Positions 41,181 through 44,909 of a stretch of DNA of 64,000 nt are shown one piece after another. Under the pieces are notes generated by a model, which saw only the letters and a list, made by a program, of their open reading frames with translations, did no database searches and was not told the origin of the DNA. Location: NCBI RefSeq assembly GCF_016508255.1, contig NZ_JADVKT010000007.1, positions 1 through 64,000 of the forward strand, given 5' to 3'. Origin of the DNA: Acinetobacter calcoaceticus. GTDB lineage: Bacteria; Pseudomonadota; Gammaproteobacteria; Pseudomonadales; Moraxellaceae. The position numbers and the translations under genes are program-made. Within the stretch, counting starts at the first letter, position 1, and every line of letters begins with the position of its first letter.

Positions 41181-42236
41181 ATGGAAATTAAAAAAGCCCC
41201 AAAAAGTACTGATATGTTAAAGGGTAAAACGCTTTTAATTACAGGCGGCACAGGCTCTTTTGGTAATGCTATGATTAAGGGTTTTTTAAACTCAGATCTT
41301 AAAGAAATAAGAATTTTTAGTCGTGATGAAAAAAAACAAGAAGATATGCGTATTGCTTATAAAAATGAAAAACTAAACTTTATAATTGGTGATATACGAA
41401 ATTTTAATGATATAAATCAAGCAATGATGGGGGTAGATTTTGTCTTTCATGCAGCTGCATTAAAGCAGGTTCCTTCATGTGAATTTTATCCAATGCAGGC
41501 TGTTCAAACGAATATTCTGGGTGCAGAAAATGTATTGGAAGCAGCAGCAAGAAACAATGTCCAACGAGTTGTGGTTTTAAGTACAGATAAAGCTGTTTAT
41601 CCAATTAATACAATGGGTATGTCGAAGGCGTTAATGGAGAAACTAGCAGTTTCGAAGGCCAGAGATACTAGAGTTAAAAATATAGATGCAGTCTATACAG
41701 CCACACGTTATGGCAATGTAATGTGTTCACGTGGATCAATTATCCCGTTATTTATTAAACAAATTAAAGAAGGCTTACCTTTAACTATTACTAATCCTAA
41801 AATGACTCGTTTTATGATGTCATTACAAGACTCTGTCGAACTAGTTTTGTTCGCTTTTAGTCAAGGTAATCCTGGTGATATTTTAGTACAAAAATCACCA
41901 GGTGCAACGATTGAGGTTTTAGCTCAAGCACTTAAAGAACTCTTTAACGCAGATAATGAGATCAAAATTATTGGCGAACGTCATGGTGAGAAGCTATTTG
42001 AAACTCTTTGTTCAAAAGAAGAAATGGCGAAAGCAGATGATTTAGGAGACTTTTATAGAATTCCTGCTGATTTTCGAGATCTAAACTACAGTAAATATGT
42101 GCAAGAGAATGCACCTGCTTTATTAGATGAGGAATATAATTCACACAATACGCATAGATTAAATGTTGAGGAATTAAAAGAATTATTGCTCACGTTAGAG
42201 TATGTTCAAGATGAATTAAAATCACATCAAGGATAA
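41181..42236 (+). CDS. UDP-GlcNAc 4,6-dehydratase/5-epimerase, FnlA/CapE type
   Basis: 351-residue SDR. TGGTGSFG at 21-28; the catalytic region LSTDKAVYPINTMGMSK has D136, K137 and, in place of the usual Tyr of YxxxK, M145 with K149 four residues on. That Met-xxx-Lys form and the tail DLNYSKYVQE and YNSHNTHRLNVEELK place it with FnlA/WbjB/CapE rather than FlaA1/PseB. Those enzymes convert UDP-D-GlcNAc to a 6-deoxy-4-keto-L-sugar, the first step to UDP-L-FucNAc. Here fnlB and fnlC are absent and two aminotransferase homologues plus a GNAT follow, so the 4-keto group is probably aminated. AGAGGAAAAG is a strong ribosome site. Confidence 0.88.
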   Translation: MEIKKAPKSTDMLKGKTLLITGGTGSFGNAMIKGFLNSDLKEIRIFSRDEKKQEDMRIAYKNEKLNFIIGDIRNFNDINQAMMGVDFVFHAAALKQVPSCEFYPMQAVQTNILGAENVLEAAARNNVQRVVVLSTDKAVYPINTMGMSKALMEKLAVSKARDTRVKNIDAVYTATRYGNVMCSRGSIIPLFIKQIKEGLPLTITNPKMTRFMMSLQDSVELVLFAFSQGNPGDILVQKSPGATIEVLAQALKELFNADNEIKIIGERHGEKLFETLCSKEEMAKADDLGDFYRIPADFRDLNYSKYVQENAPALLDEEYNSHNTHRLNVEELKELLLTLEYVQDELKSHQG

Positions 42237-42240
42237 TAAA

Positions 42241-43329
42241 ATGTTACCACTTATAAAAACCAGTTTGCCTGAAAGAGAGCTATTAATACCTCGCTTAGAG
42301 GAAGTTTTGTATAGCGGTTATATTGCCCAAGGTGAGATTGTTGAAAATTTTGAAAGAAAATTCGAAGAATATATTGGAAGTGGAAATACACTGTCATTAA
42401 ACTCAGGAACTGCAGCATTACATATCGCATTGATATTGGCTGGGGTTGGGCAAGATGATGAAGTAATTAGTACGGCATTGACTGCTGAACCGACTAATGT
42501 TGCAATTAAGATGGTCGGGGCAAAAGTTCGTTGGGCTGATGTCGATTATGAGACTGGTAATATATCACCTGACTCGATTGAGAAAGCAATCAATGCTAAA
42601 ACGAAGGCAATTATTGTTGTCGACTATGCAGGTATTCCTGTTGACGTAAAGAGAATTCAGGAAATTTCTGAAAAGTATGGTATTCCAGTCATTGAAGATG
42701 CTGCGCATGCAATAGGTGCTAAATTTAATGGGAAAAAAACAGGAAATCATTTTCCGTTTACTGTTTTTTCTTTTCAAGCGATAAAACATCTAACAACAAT
42801 AGATGGTGGTGCTTTACAGATTCAAGATGATGCTCTTTATGAGCGAGGTAAAATTATAAGATGGTTCGGGTTAGATAAAAAGAAAACAAGATTAGATAAT
42901 AATATAACAGAACAAGGCTATAAGTATCATATGAACAATGTGAATGCTTGCGTTGGCCTTTTACAATTGGAAGGAATCGATAAAATTGTTGATAAGTATA
43001 TAGAGAATGGTAAATACCTTGACCAAAATTTAAAAGATATACCGGGTGTAGAGTTAATTAAATATTATGATAACTCAGAACCATCTTACTGGTTATACAC
43101 ATTAAAGGTTGAGAATAGAGCTAACTTTATTAAAATGATGGAAGCGAATGGCATTGCTGCTTCTGAACTTCATAAACGTAATGATTTACATGAATATTTA
43201 AATGACAATCCTACAGAATTGCCAAATTTAGATCGGTTTTATGAAAAGATGGTGCATATTCCATGCGGATGGTGGGTCACTAAAGATGACTGCGATAAGA
43301 TGATTGAATTGATTCGGAAAGGTTGGTAA
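42241..43329 (+). CDS. DegT/DnrJ/EryC1 sugar aminotransferase (catalytic copy)
   Basis: 362-residue PLP-dependent aminotransferase. LNSGTAALHIAL at 53-64 grips the PLP phosphate, IEDAAHAIGA (151-160) carries the Asp that binds the PLP nitrogen, and K182 in FSFQAIKHLTTIDGG is the Schiff-base Lys. The C-terminus has IPCGWWVTKDD and a final helix. It starts 4 bases after the dehydratase stop, so it probably aminates C4 of that enzyme's 4-keto product using glutamate. It is not clearly PseC, LegC, PglE or VioA. The exact stereochemistry of the product is unknown. Confidence 0.88.
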   Translation: MLPLIKTSLPERELLIPRLEEVLYSGYIAQGEIVENFERKFEEYIGSGNTLSLNSGTAALHIALILAGVGQDDEVISTALTAEPTNVAIKMVGAKVRWADVDYETGNISPDSIEKAINAKTKAIIVVDYAGIPVDVKRIQEISEKYGIPVIEDAAHAIGAKFNGKKTGNHFPFTVFSFQAIKHLTTIDGGALQIQDDALYERGKIIRWFGLDKKKTRLDNNITEQGYKYHMNNVNACVGLLQLEGIDKIVDKYIENGKYLDQNLKDIPGVELIKYYDNSEPSYWLYTLKVENRANFIKMMEANGIAASELHKRNDLHEYLNDNPTELPNLDRFYEKMVHIPCGWWVTKDDCDKMIELIRKGW

Positions 43330-44393
43330 TGATTCCCATTTTTAAACCCTATATGCCCAGTGATATCTTACCAGAATTAGAGAATATTCTATATTCTGGT
43401 CAATTAGCATATGGAAAATATGGAAAATTATTTGAATCAGAATTAGCCAAGTTTATAGGGAACCCATATGTAATCTCGGTGAACTCTTATAATCAAGCTA
43501 TGTTGTTGGCTCTATCTATATTAAATTTAAATCCAGGGGACGAAGTAATTGCTTCCCCTGTAAGTTGTTTGGCTTCGAATCAGCCTTTTGTGATTAAAGG
43601 ATTAAACGTGATTTGGGCCGATGTTGATCCAAACACTGGGGCACTTTGTGTTGAAGATGTTAAAAAAAGAATCACTTCAAAAACCAAAGCGATATTCCAT
43701 AATCACTTCTGTGGTTATTTAGGTGATGTAATAGCAATAAATCAACTAGCTAAAGAGCATGGTCTTTGGGTTGTGGATGATTGTATTGAAGCCTTTGGAA
43801 CAGAACATAATGCTCAAAAAACAGGAAATTTAGGCGCTGATCTAACGGTATTCTCTTTTCAAACAGTTCGATTGCCAAATACGGTAGATGGTGCTGCAAT
43901 AAGTTTTTCATCTAAAGAGTTATATGAGAAAGCTATTCTTATGCGCGATTATGGCATAGATCGGAAAAACTTTAGAACCTCTATGGGGGAAATTAATCCA
44001 AATTGTGATATCTCATTAGAAGGATATGGCGCAACGCTTAGTGAAATTAATTCATATATTGGTTTAAAACAAATGGATAATTTGCCTAATTTGTTGAATA
44101 AACAGAGAAGTAATGCTGTAAATTGGAATAATAAAATTCAAGAAATGTCAGCGATAAAACCTCTAAGCTTAGTGTCTGGTACAAAGCCAAATTATTGGGT
44201 TTTTGGTGTTTTATGTGAGAATAAAGAAAAAGCATTGGAAAATTTTCGTAAAGAGAATTGGTATGCGACAGGTGTTCATATCAATAATAATATTTATTCT
44301 GTTTTTAATAATTTTGAAACTTTAAATGGAGTAAATGAATTTATGAGTAAATTTTTAGCTTTACCATGCGGTTGGTGGGTAGAGAAAATTTAA
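43329..44393 (+). CDS. DegT-like protein lacking the PLP lysine
   Basis: 354 residues from the ATG that overlaps the preceding stop (TAATG). It aligns with the upstream aminotransferase along its length and shares the C-terminal LPCGWWV box, but key positions differ: R181 (codon CGA at 43869-43871) in FSFQTVRLPNTVDG stands where the upstream protein has K182; SGTAAL becomes NSYNQAML; EDAAHA becomes DDCIEAFG. The protein also stops three residues after CGWWV, without the last helix. The frame is open throughout, so this is not a recent wreck. Most likely a non-catalytic subunit pairing with the upstream enzyme, or a DegT relative with different chemistry, as ColD uses His here. Confidence 0.8.
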   Translation: MIPIFKPYMPSDILPELENILYSGQLAYGKYGKLFESELAKFIGNPYVISVNSYNQAMLLALSILNLNPGDEVIASPVSCLASNQPFVIKGLNVIWADVDPNTGALCVEDVKKRITSKTKAIFHNHFCGYLGDVIAINQLAKEHGLWVVDDCIEAFGTEHNAQKTGNLGADLTVFSFQTVRLPNTVDGAAISFSSKELYEKAILMRDYGIDRKNFRTSMGEINPNCDISLEGYGATLSEINSYIGLKQMDNLPNLLNKQRSNAVNWNNKIQEMSAIKPLSLVSGTKPNYWVFGVLCENKEKALENFRKENWYATGVHINNNIYSVFNNFETLNGVNEFMSKFLALPCGWWVEKI

Positions 44394-44408: not shown

Positions 44409-44909
44409 ATGTATCAAATTAAGTTGATAGCACACAAAGAAATAACTGAAAATGAATTAAATGAAGTTGTAAGAATTAAATCTGCGCAATGGCATTATAG
44501 TTATGATGAACAATTACAATGGATAAAGAAAAATATAAAGGACTTAGATATTCATGTACTGCTATCTTTAGATGGGCGAAATGTAGCTTATTTAAATTTA
44601 ATTGATATTGATTTATTTGTAGAGGAAATAGCAGTAAAAGGTTTTGGAATTGGTAATGTATGTGCAATTGAAAAGGGAAAGGGTTTTGGCTTTGAATTAA
44701 TGAAAGAGGTGAATGAGACTATAATTCGATTAAATAAAGTTGGATTGTTATTTTGCAAAGAGCCATTATTAAAGTTCTATCGTTCCTTAGGTTGGAAAGA
44801 TCTAGCATCAGAAGAATATAAGATAAATGGTGATAAACTAGAGGTTATGATATACAACGTAAATTATGATAATAAAATTTTGATCGAGTATGATGGAATC
44901 CTCTTCTAG
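44409..44909 (+). CDS. GNAT-fold acetyltransferase, probable sugar N-acyltransferase
   Basis: 166 residues. The fold pattern fits GNAT: N-terminal KSAQWHYSYDEQLQWIKKNI, central strands HVLLSLDGRNVAYLNLIDID, then GIGNVCAIEKGKGFGFELMKEVNE, where GKGFG is the acetyl-CoA pyrophosphate loop, and a final LLKFYRSLGWKD, the conserved FY..GW turn. It lies 15 bases after the second DegT homologue, so it probably acylates the new amino group, parallel to PseH after PseC. Similarity is to the fold only, so the acceptor and acyl group are guesses. Very AT-rich codon use. Confidence 0.75.
   Translation: MYQIKLIAHKEITENELNEVVRIKSAQWHYSYDEQLQWIKKNIKDLDIHVLLSLDGRNVAYLNLIDIDLFVEEIAVKGFGIGNVCAIEKGKGFGFELMKEVNETIIRLNKVGLLFCKEPLLKFYRSLGWKDLASEEYKINGDKLEVMIYNVNYDNKILIEYDGILF

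Follow-up and report, generated by a model that had tools for sequence, protein, structure and literature searches.

We analysed a 64,000-nucleotide stretch of DNA from Acinetobacter calcoaceticus (contig NZ_JADVKT010000007.1, positions 1 to 64,000; hereafter the window), which carries an Acinetobacter-type capsule locus. Within it lie two overlapping genes, A and B, both encoding proteins of the DegT aminotransferase fold, the second of which lacks the lysine that holds pyridoxal 5'-phosphate (PLP). They follow a gene for an FnlA-like UDP-GlcNAc 4,6-dehydratase/5-epimerase (F) and precede a gene for a GNAT-like N-acetyltransferase, all four on the forward strand. Upstream are divergent Wza- and Wzc-like genes, recognised by Pfam, and rml genes, named from the reading of the open reading frames (ORFs).

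Gene F (41181..42236) has FnlA as its best NCBIfam model, at 503 bits. Gene A (42241..43329) encodes a DegT aminotransferase of 362 aa (Pfam DegT, 297 bits) whose PLP lysine, Lys182 (codon AAA, 42784..42786), is Lys in all 34 aligned A rows. Gene B (43329..44393) encodes a DegT-fold paralogue of 354 aa, counted from the ATG at 43329, which was used here instead of the TTG at 43323 picked by the ORF tool. At the position of the PLP lysine it carries Arg181 (codon CGA, 43869..43871), which shares one alignment column with Lys182 of A. Relative to A, B also has an inserted loop, F215-R216-TSMG-E221-IN (43971..43997), opposite a gap. The GNAT-like protein (44409..44909) matches Acetyltransf_9 weakly, at 24.3 bits against a cut-off of 25.

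The initial annotation had described two DegT ORFs overlapping as TAATG, and we recovered both, with the stop of A and the start of B sharing positions 43327..43331; the overlap is identical in two other Acinetobacter loci (L001 and L002). The contrast of AAA with CGA at K182 and R181, as well as the replacement in B of SGTAAL by NSYNQAML and of EDAAHA by DDCIEAFG, was also borne out by the sequence. The loss of the end of B after the CGWWV box holds for the window protein but is lineage-specific, as the E. coli B proteins, with 370, 379 and 383 aa, continue past CGWW/CGYW.

B matches Pfam DegT (PF01041) at 210 bits against a cut-off of 19.8, the other Pfam families that it matches are all aminotransferase families, and both the profile and the fold span the whole chain. 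PseC (TIGR03588) is the top NCBIfam model for both proteins (235 bits for A, 158 bits for B), its cut-off of 423.5 being missed by a wide margin in both cases. The whole chain of B is modelled with confidence, at a mean pLDDT (predicted local distance difference test) of 95.6. AtmS13 and CalS13 (4zwv, 4xau and 4zas) are the nearest solved structures to A by sequence, and the closest to B by both sequence and fold; 4zwv has Lys at the PLP-lysine site, whereas B has Arg. Homologues of the B type carry aminotransferase names in the databases. Despite these names, B cannot be a usual aminotransferase.

Absence of the PLP lysine from B-type proteins

Arg occupies site 181 in all of the 120 closest B homologues (the best 120 of 3179) and Lys in none of them, while the 120 listed A homologues all have Lys. 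The refuting case named in the initial annotation, B homologues with Lys, was thus looked for among these close homologues and did not occur. A second search, with the distant B protein of E. coli O119 as query, gave 109 new rows, 103 with Arg and 6 with Lys. The six carry the A-type motif SFQA(I/V)KH(L/M)TT, and the five placed in a tree all fall in the A clade. One further protein, P0266, was excluded from these rows as chimera-like; it has 451 aa, sugar transferase domains and one third that is 99% identical to the O119 B protein, and is perhaps a chimeric assembly.

In two gammaproteobacterial loci, L135 and L136, the B-clade proteins (here B') have Asn or Thr in place of Arg at site 181. 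Their E221 is Asp, and D151 is Glu in L136. As a control, we inspected 34 DegT proteins in 30 fetched loci from 369 gammaproteobacterial genomes: Lys is present in 31, and the three without it, encoded beside an A in every case, are of the B type, with Arg in G003, Asn in G931 and Thr in G1053. No examined B-type protein has Lys; Arg is usual at this site, not universal. What is conserved at site 181 in other loci is thus the loss of Lys, and not a fixed Arg.

In a tree of 72 rows, comprising 36 Arg proteins, 21 Lys-bearing A proteins and 15 other DegT proteins (L077 was omitted as partial), the Arg rows form a single clade (93/79) with the A rows as its sister (97/89), and both stand apart from the other DegT proteins (100/99). 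A tree of 77 rows that included L135 and L136 kept the B-type proteins as one clade (95/84) and placed these two beside P0309 and P0350, both of which have Arg. The simplest reading of the trees would be one duplication followed by one loss of Lys. That B is a duplicate of A which lost the PLP lysine, as had been proposed for the window, agrees with the sister clades and with the absence of Lys from all 120 close homologues.

The ratio of nonsynonymous to synonymous substitution (dN/dS) between the window and two Acinetobacter loci was 0.10 and 0.09 for B, 0.06 and 0.06 for A, and 0.03 and 0.03 for F. B is under purifying selection, in line with the earlier impression that it is maintained. 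Across 84 B rows, reaching down to 27% identity to the window protein, 18 columns are invariant, including C80, D151, S176, R216, E221, H317 and Y323. R181 is invariant as well, but these rows were chosen for Arg. Within the inserted loop, F215, R216 and E221 are invariant in the same rows; the outgroup DegT protein L072 has a similar RGEIN stretch, so the loop is not unique to B. The Asp and Ser that contact the pyridine nitrogen and the phosphate in aminotransferases, matched to the A residues by alignment, are kept as D151 and S176. Judged from their conservation, these invariant polar residues may make up an active site specific to B. A metal or cysteine cluster was considered and dropped, since Cys80 is the sole invariant Cys and also occurs in the Lys-type proteins P0327 and P0333. 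The loss of the lysine is real, and older and wider than the initial annotation, made from a single sequence, could show.

Genomic company and the predicted sugar

We collected 33 related loci from species genomes of Acinetobacter and Bacteroidota, together with one labelled Rhizobium and one of an uncultured bacterium. All 33 contain an A with Lys and an F gene together with a B with Arg; in L015, the contig stops within F. A directly neighbours B in 26 of the loci, and other genes stand between the two in seven (L015 and L028-L033). Among 299 Flavobacteriaceae genomes, A (E <= 1e-80) and B (E <= 1e-90) were found in the same three, two of which (G005 and G168) also underlie loci L011 and L019. 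Among 395 Bacteroidota genomes, A at an identity of at least 51% was found in five, and all five have B; two of these (G006 and G528) also underlie L029 and L003. Two other Bacteroidota genomes, G510 and G632, have only an A-like protein of 40% identity, with no F or B within the 15 kb examined. The gammaproteobacterium G937 has a 46% A-like protein and no B; Lys is present in each of its four DegT matches, and the A-like protein clusters with the outer Lys branch of P0327, P0330 and P0333.

Of 149 Acinetobacter genomes, 15 have an F homologue, and only two of these, the genomes of L001 and L002, have A and B. In 12 of the other 13, FnlB and the start of FnlC lie alongside F, and in the remaining one (L063) there is a more distant FnlB-like stretch. 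A scan of viral contigs gave one distant match (27%), and plasmids gave no match at 1e-60.

Searching 5426 E. coli genomes at the DNA level, we arrived at the O-antigen clusters of serogroups O119 (L048), O109 (L049) and O182 (L050), for each of which one genome was opened. Each cluster has an acyltransferase, A with Lys, B with Arg, and F. An FnlA-like protein with two DegT proteins, one with and one without Lys, thus occurs in the window, in all 33 loci and in O109, O119 and O182. This set corresponds to weiS/weiP/weiQ of O109, which likewise comprises an FnlA-like dehydratase and two DegT proteins. Between the window and O109, identity is 65% for F, 49% for A and 31% for B, which is near the 33-66% given in the available part of PMC9676051 for rhnABC of A. 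baumannii KL166/KL224 against WeiS/WeiP/WeiQ; rhnABC was compared by way of these published figures. The same part of that paper makes one joint prediction for the three genes, L-RhaNAc3NAc as the product, marks the A. baumannii product as being without structural data, and does not discuss the lysine loss or separate roles for the two DegT proteins. A title in the data bibliography of PMC5643014 announces evidence that O109 and O119 contain derivatives of L-RhaN3N. The link of the set to L-RhaN3N is taken from this literature. The set, which the initial annotation had not identified as such, is already known and named; in the literature searched, we found no prior account of its lysine-less member, of the single clade or of a probable non-transaminase role. 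The Flavobacterium psychrophilum O-polysaccharide was considered as a chemical anchor and left unused, as its cluster, in the available part of PMC6519341, has fnl genes with pglE/pglF and apparently not this set.

The type of acyltransferase varies with the locus, with a formyltransferase in O119 and GNAT proteins in O109 and O182. The sugar of O119 is the N-formyl form, so the acyltransferase type agrees with the sugar in O109 (GNAT, acetyl) and in O119 (formyltransferase, formyl). Such variation is expected if one free amino group receives different acyl groups. Elsewhere the set is accompanied by GNAT, left-handed beta-helix or formyltransferase genes, or by a combination of KASIII, short-chain dehydrogenase/reductase (SDR) and AMP-ligase genes. 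GNAT genes related to that of the window are present in other loci carrying the set, and blastp gave no meaningful similarity between the window GNAT and those of O109 or O182.

Candidate functions of B

When the route to a 3-amino sugar passes through a 4-keto intermediate, a keto shift is required, which in dTDP sugars is carried out by 3,4-ketoisomerases of the FdtA/QdtA type, enzymes of the cupin fold (PF05523). The step proposed below for B is the one that these enzymes catalyse, but B matches DegT and not PF05523. No FdtA match was found among ten proteins, of which eight belong to the three E. coli clusters and two to the window. In a survey of 17 set-carrying genomes outside the three E. 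coli records, PF05523 is absent from seven, both Acinetobacter genomes included. B is the best uncommitted candidate for the keto shift, unless F performs it.

We therefore propose that F, A, B and an acyltransferase would together convert UDP-GlcNAc into a UDP-2-acetamido-3-acylamino-2,3,6-trideoxy-L-hexose of the L-RhaNAc3N type. F would make the 5-inverted 4-keto-6-deoxy intermediate; B, no longer transaminating, would use acid-base (enediol) chemistry to convert the 4-keto into the 3-keto form; A, as its own dimer, would aminate C3; and the GNAT protein would acetylate the C3 amino group, the window GNAT being the likely acylating enzyme. We infer the step of each enzyme, above all that of B as the isomerase. 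That B, on an aminotransferase fold, supplies the missing isomerisation of the 4-keto to the 3-keto sugar, with A as the C3 aminotransferase, has in our judgement not far short of an even chance. The broader proposal, that B is a PLP-free nucleotide-sugar 3,4-ketoisomerase of a new class, which evolved once from a duplicated sugar aminotransferase so that the twins perform keto shift and then amination in capsule, O-antigen and apparently flagellin loci, is held tentatively, at somewhat below an even chance. Should B prove to be an isomerase, a small, four-protein pathway to a rare diamino sugar of E. coli serogroups and Acinetobacter capsules would gain its missing step and a large fold family a further reaction, and no sugar should be predicted from a capsule locus until its DegT genes have been inspected for the lysine.

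Several points weigh against an isomerase role. No DegT-fold isomerase was found in the literature, among the matches listed. That the window makes an L-RhaNAc3N-type sugar is suggested by gene similarity, which for B is only 31% to O109. Any role that requires Arg is weakened by the two B-clade rows that have Asn or Thr at site 181, and a mechanism should therefore not depend on Arg alone. B also retains Asp151 and Ser176, and its Thr57 site is still occupied by a small polar residue, which could mean that PLP or pyridoxamine 5'-phosphate (PMP) is still bound. Furthermore, 10 of the 17 surveyed genomes have an FdtA-family gene, although for 11 of the 14 matches the contig differs from that of the set. 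In three Flavobacterium genomes (G005, G834 and G839), a marginal FdtA-like cupin shares the contig with the set and lies 12-14 kb from B (L078:1567-1992, L139:193-624 and L142:338-757). These cupins, which could do the keto shift in those three genomes, form one family of 139-143 aa with borderline scores for the FdtA profile (21.8-24.5 bits; the cut-off is 23), and that of G005, at C5:298769-299191 of Flavobacterium resistens, adjoins an RmlC-like gene and another DegT gene, of the Lys type. The family was met in only 3 of the 17 genomes, the other 14 being negative, and neither in the window nor in the 38 loci tested; it is thus no regular member of the set, and its presence in the three weakens the isomerase reading slightly. 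Finally, F might perform the keto shift itself, given the C3 epimerisation known of FnlA.

Among the alternatives, the one that survives best, although we consider it unlikely, is that A and B form a heteromeric aminotransferase in which B is a non-catalytic or half-site subunit, the keto shift taking place on F or on A. LCB1 is such a subunit for serine palmitoyltransferase. The constant company of A and B in the 33 loci, in the same three Flavobacteriaceae genomes and in the five Bacteroidota genomes would suit a heteromer, as would the TAATG overlap. So would an N-terminal stretch kept in both proteins, which matches by motif the part of Spr1654 that contributes to the uracil pocket of the partner, a pocket that uses Gly28 and Ile30 from the second monomer (PMC5936713, in the part available). 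Against a heteromer speaks, indirectly, one alignment column, where A has Lys228 in 37 of 37 rows and the 37 B rows have Gly (29), Ala (4), Ser (2), Asn (1) or Thr (1). Most DegT proteins have Asn here, which we take to be lent to the neighbouring subunit. The corresponding residue of Pcryo_0638, Asn239, is listed with Thr60, Asp156, Ser180 and Lys185 as ligand residues conserved among three enzymes, some ligand contacts coming from the second subunit (PMC8040287, available part). Since A keeps a Lys of presumed partner-site function, A alone should be able to form complete sites, and an A-B dimer would leave the site of A incomplete, B having this Lys in 0 of 37 rows. Moreover, A and B are separated by other genes in 7 of the 33 loci. 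The correlation of identities, which is weak evidence, is 0.72 for A with B, 0.82 for A with F and 0.75 for B with F (35 rows; L015 and L031, with truncated F and A, were omitted). In L004 and L009, A is 58-59% and F 79-83% identical to the window proteins, as though A had been swapped between loci, which also speaks against a fixed A-B partnership. Of the two roles offered for B in the initial annotation, a DegT relative with other chemistry consequently fits better than a non-catalytic partner.

It is quite unlikely, in our estimate, that F makes the 3-keto sugar and leaves B a minor role, such as a further epimerisation or the protection or channelling of a labile keto sugar. FnlA enzymes epimerise C3, and this epimerisation passes through an enediol, which would bring the keto shift within reach of F. 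The F proteins of the set also fall below the cut-off of 730 of the FnlA equivalog TIGR04130 (503 for the window, 507 for L006 and 549 for O119), while FnlA of E. coli O26 passes at 761; the PseB model gives the window F 305 bits against a cut-off of 407.75. In the F tree, the set F proteins and the FnlABC-type F proteins lie on opposite sides of a branch (100/98), but the E. coli set F proteins stand beside the FnlABC type (94/81), which is neutral or mildly unfavourable to this account. As the tree is unrooted, it leaves undecided whether F is specialised. An F that makes the 3-keto sugar would also leave unexplained the company that B keeps with A, and its conserved residue set.

Improbable to a similar degree is that B still has PMP or PLP bound, with no Schiff base, and carries out chemistry of the ColD or E1 kind on the 4-keto sugar. 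ColD (GDP-4-keto-6-deoxymannose 3-dehydratase) and E1 have His at the lysine site and perform PMP-dependent 3-deoxygenation. The retention of D151 and S176 is compatible with such a cofactor. However, His was not met at the lysine site in either search (120 of 120 Arg, then 103 of 109 Arg), nor in the two B' proteins. The likeness to ColD that had been suggested for B thus extends to the replacement of Lys, not to the residue that replaces it, which is Arg, or Asn and Thr in two cases.

That B is decaying and its Arg a chance loss or local mutation is already contradicted and can practically be discounted: B does diverge faster than A (dN/dS 0.10 against 0.06, identity to O109 31% against 49%), but Lys is absent from all examined B-type proteins of Acinetobacter, other Proteobacteria and Bacteroidota, and the purifying selection and the 18 invariant columns oppose it.

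Acyl modules, transfer and flagellar loci

In nine loci (L005, L009, L011, L012, L014, L016, L021, L029 and L031), the set is joined by exchangeable acyl modules, with one or two members per cluster named by Pfam. The KASIII, SDR and AMP-ligase genes found beside the set may build a hydroxyacyl group.

Cassettes of F, A, B' and an acetyltransferase lie next to flagellar genes in L135 (7301-11379) and L136 (5663-9834). By Pfam, the neighbours are FliS and a sigma-54 activator in L135, and flagellin and a FleQ-type regulator in L136. In these two loci, the diamino-sugar set may serve the glycosylation of flagellin.

F of the window (41181-42236) groups with F of Bacteroidota and not with FnlA of the 13 other Acinetobacter genomes, which suggests, as far as sequence grouping goes, that the set has passed between Bacteroidota and Acinetobacter. 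The contig of L015, labelled as a Rhizobium metagenome-assembled genome, carries a Bacteroidota-like copy of the set and is perhaps misbinned. Finally, in F. psychrophilum DSM 3660 (L006:9924-12240), a partial copy of Wzx directly precedes a complete Wzx gene.
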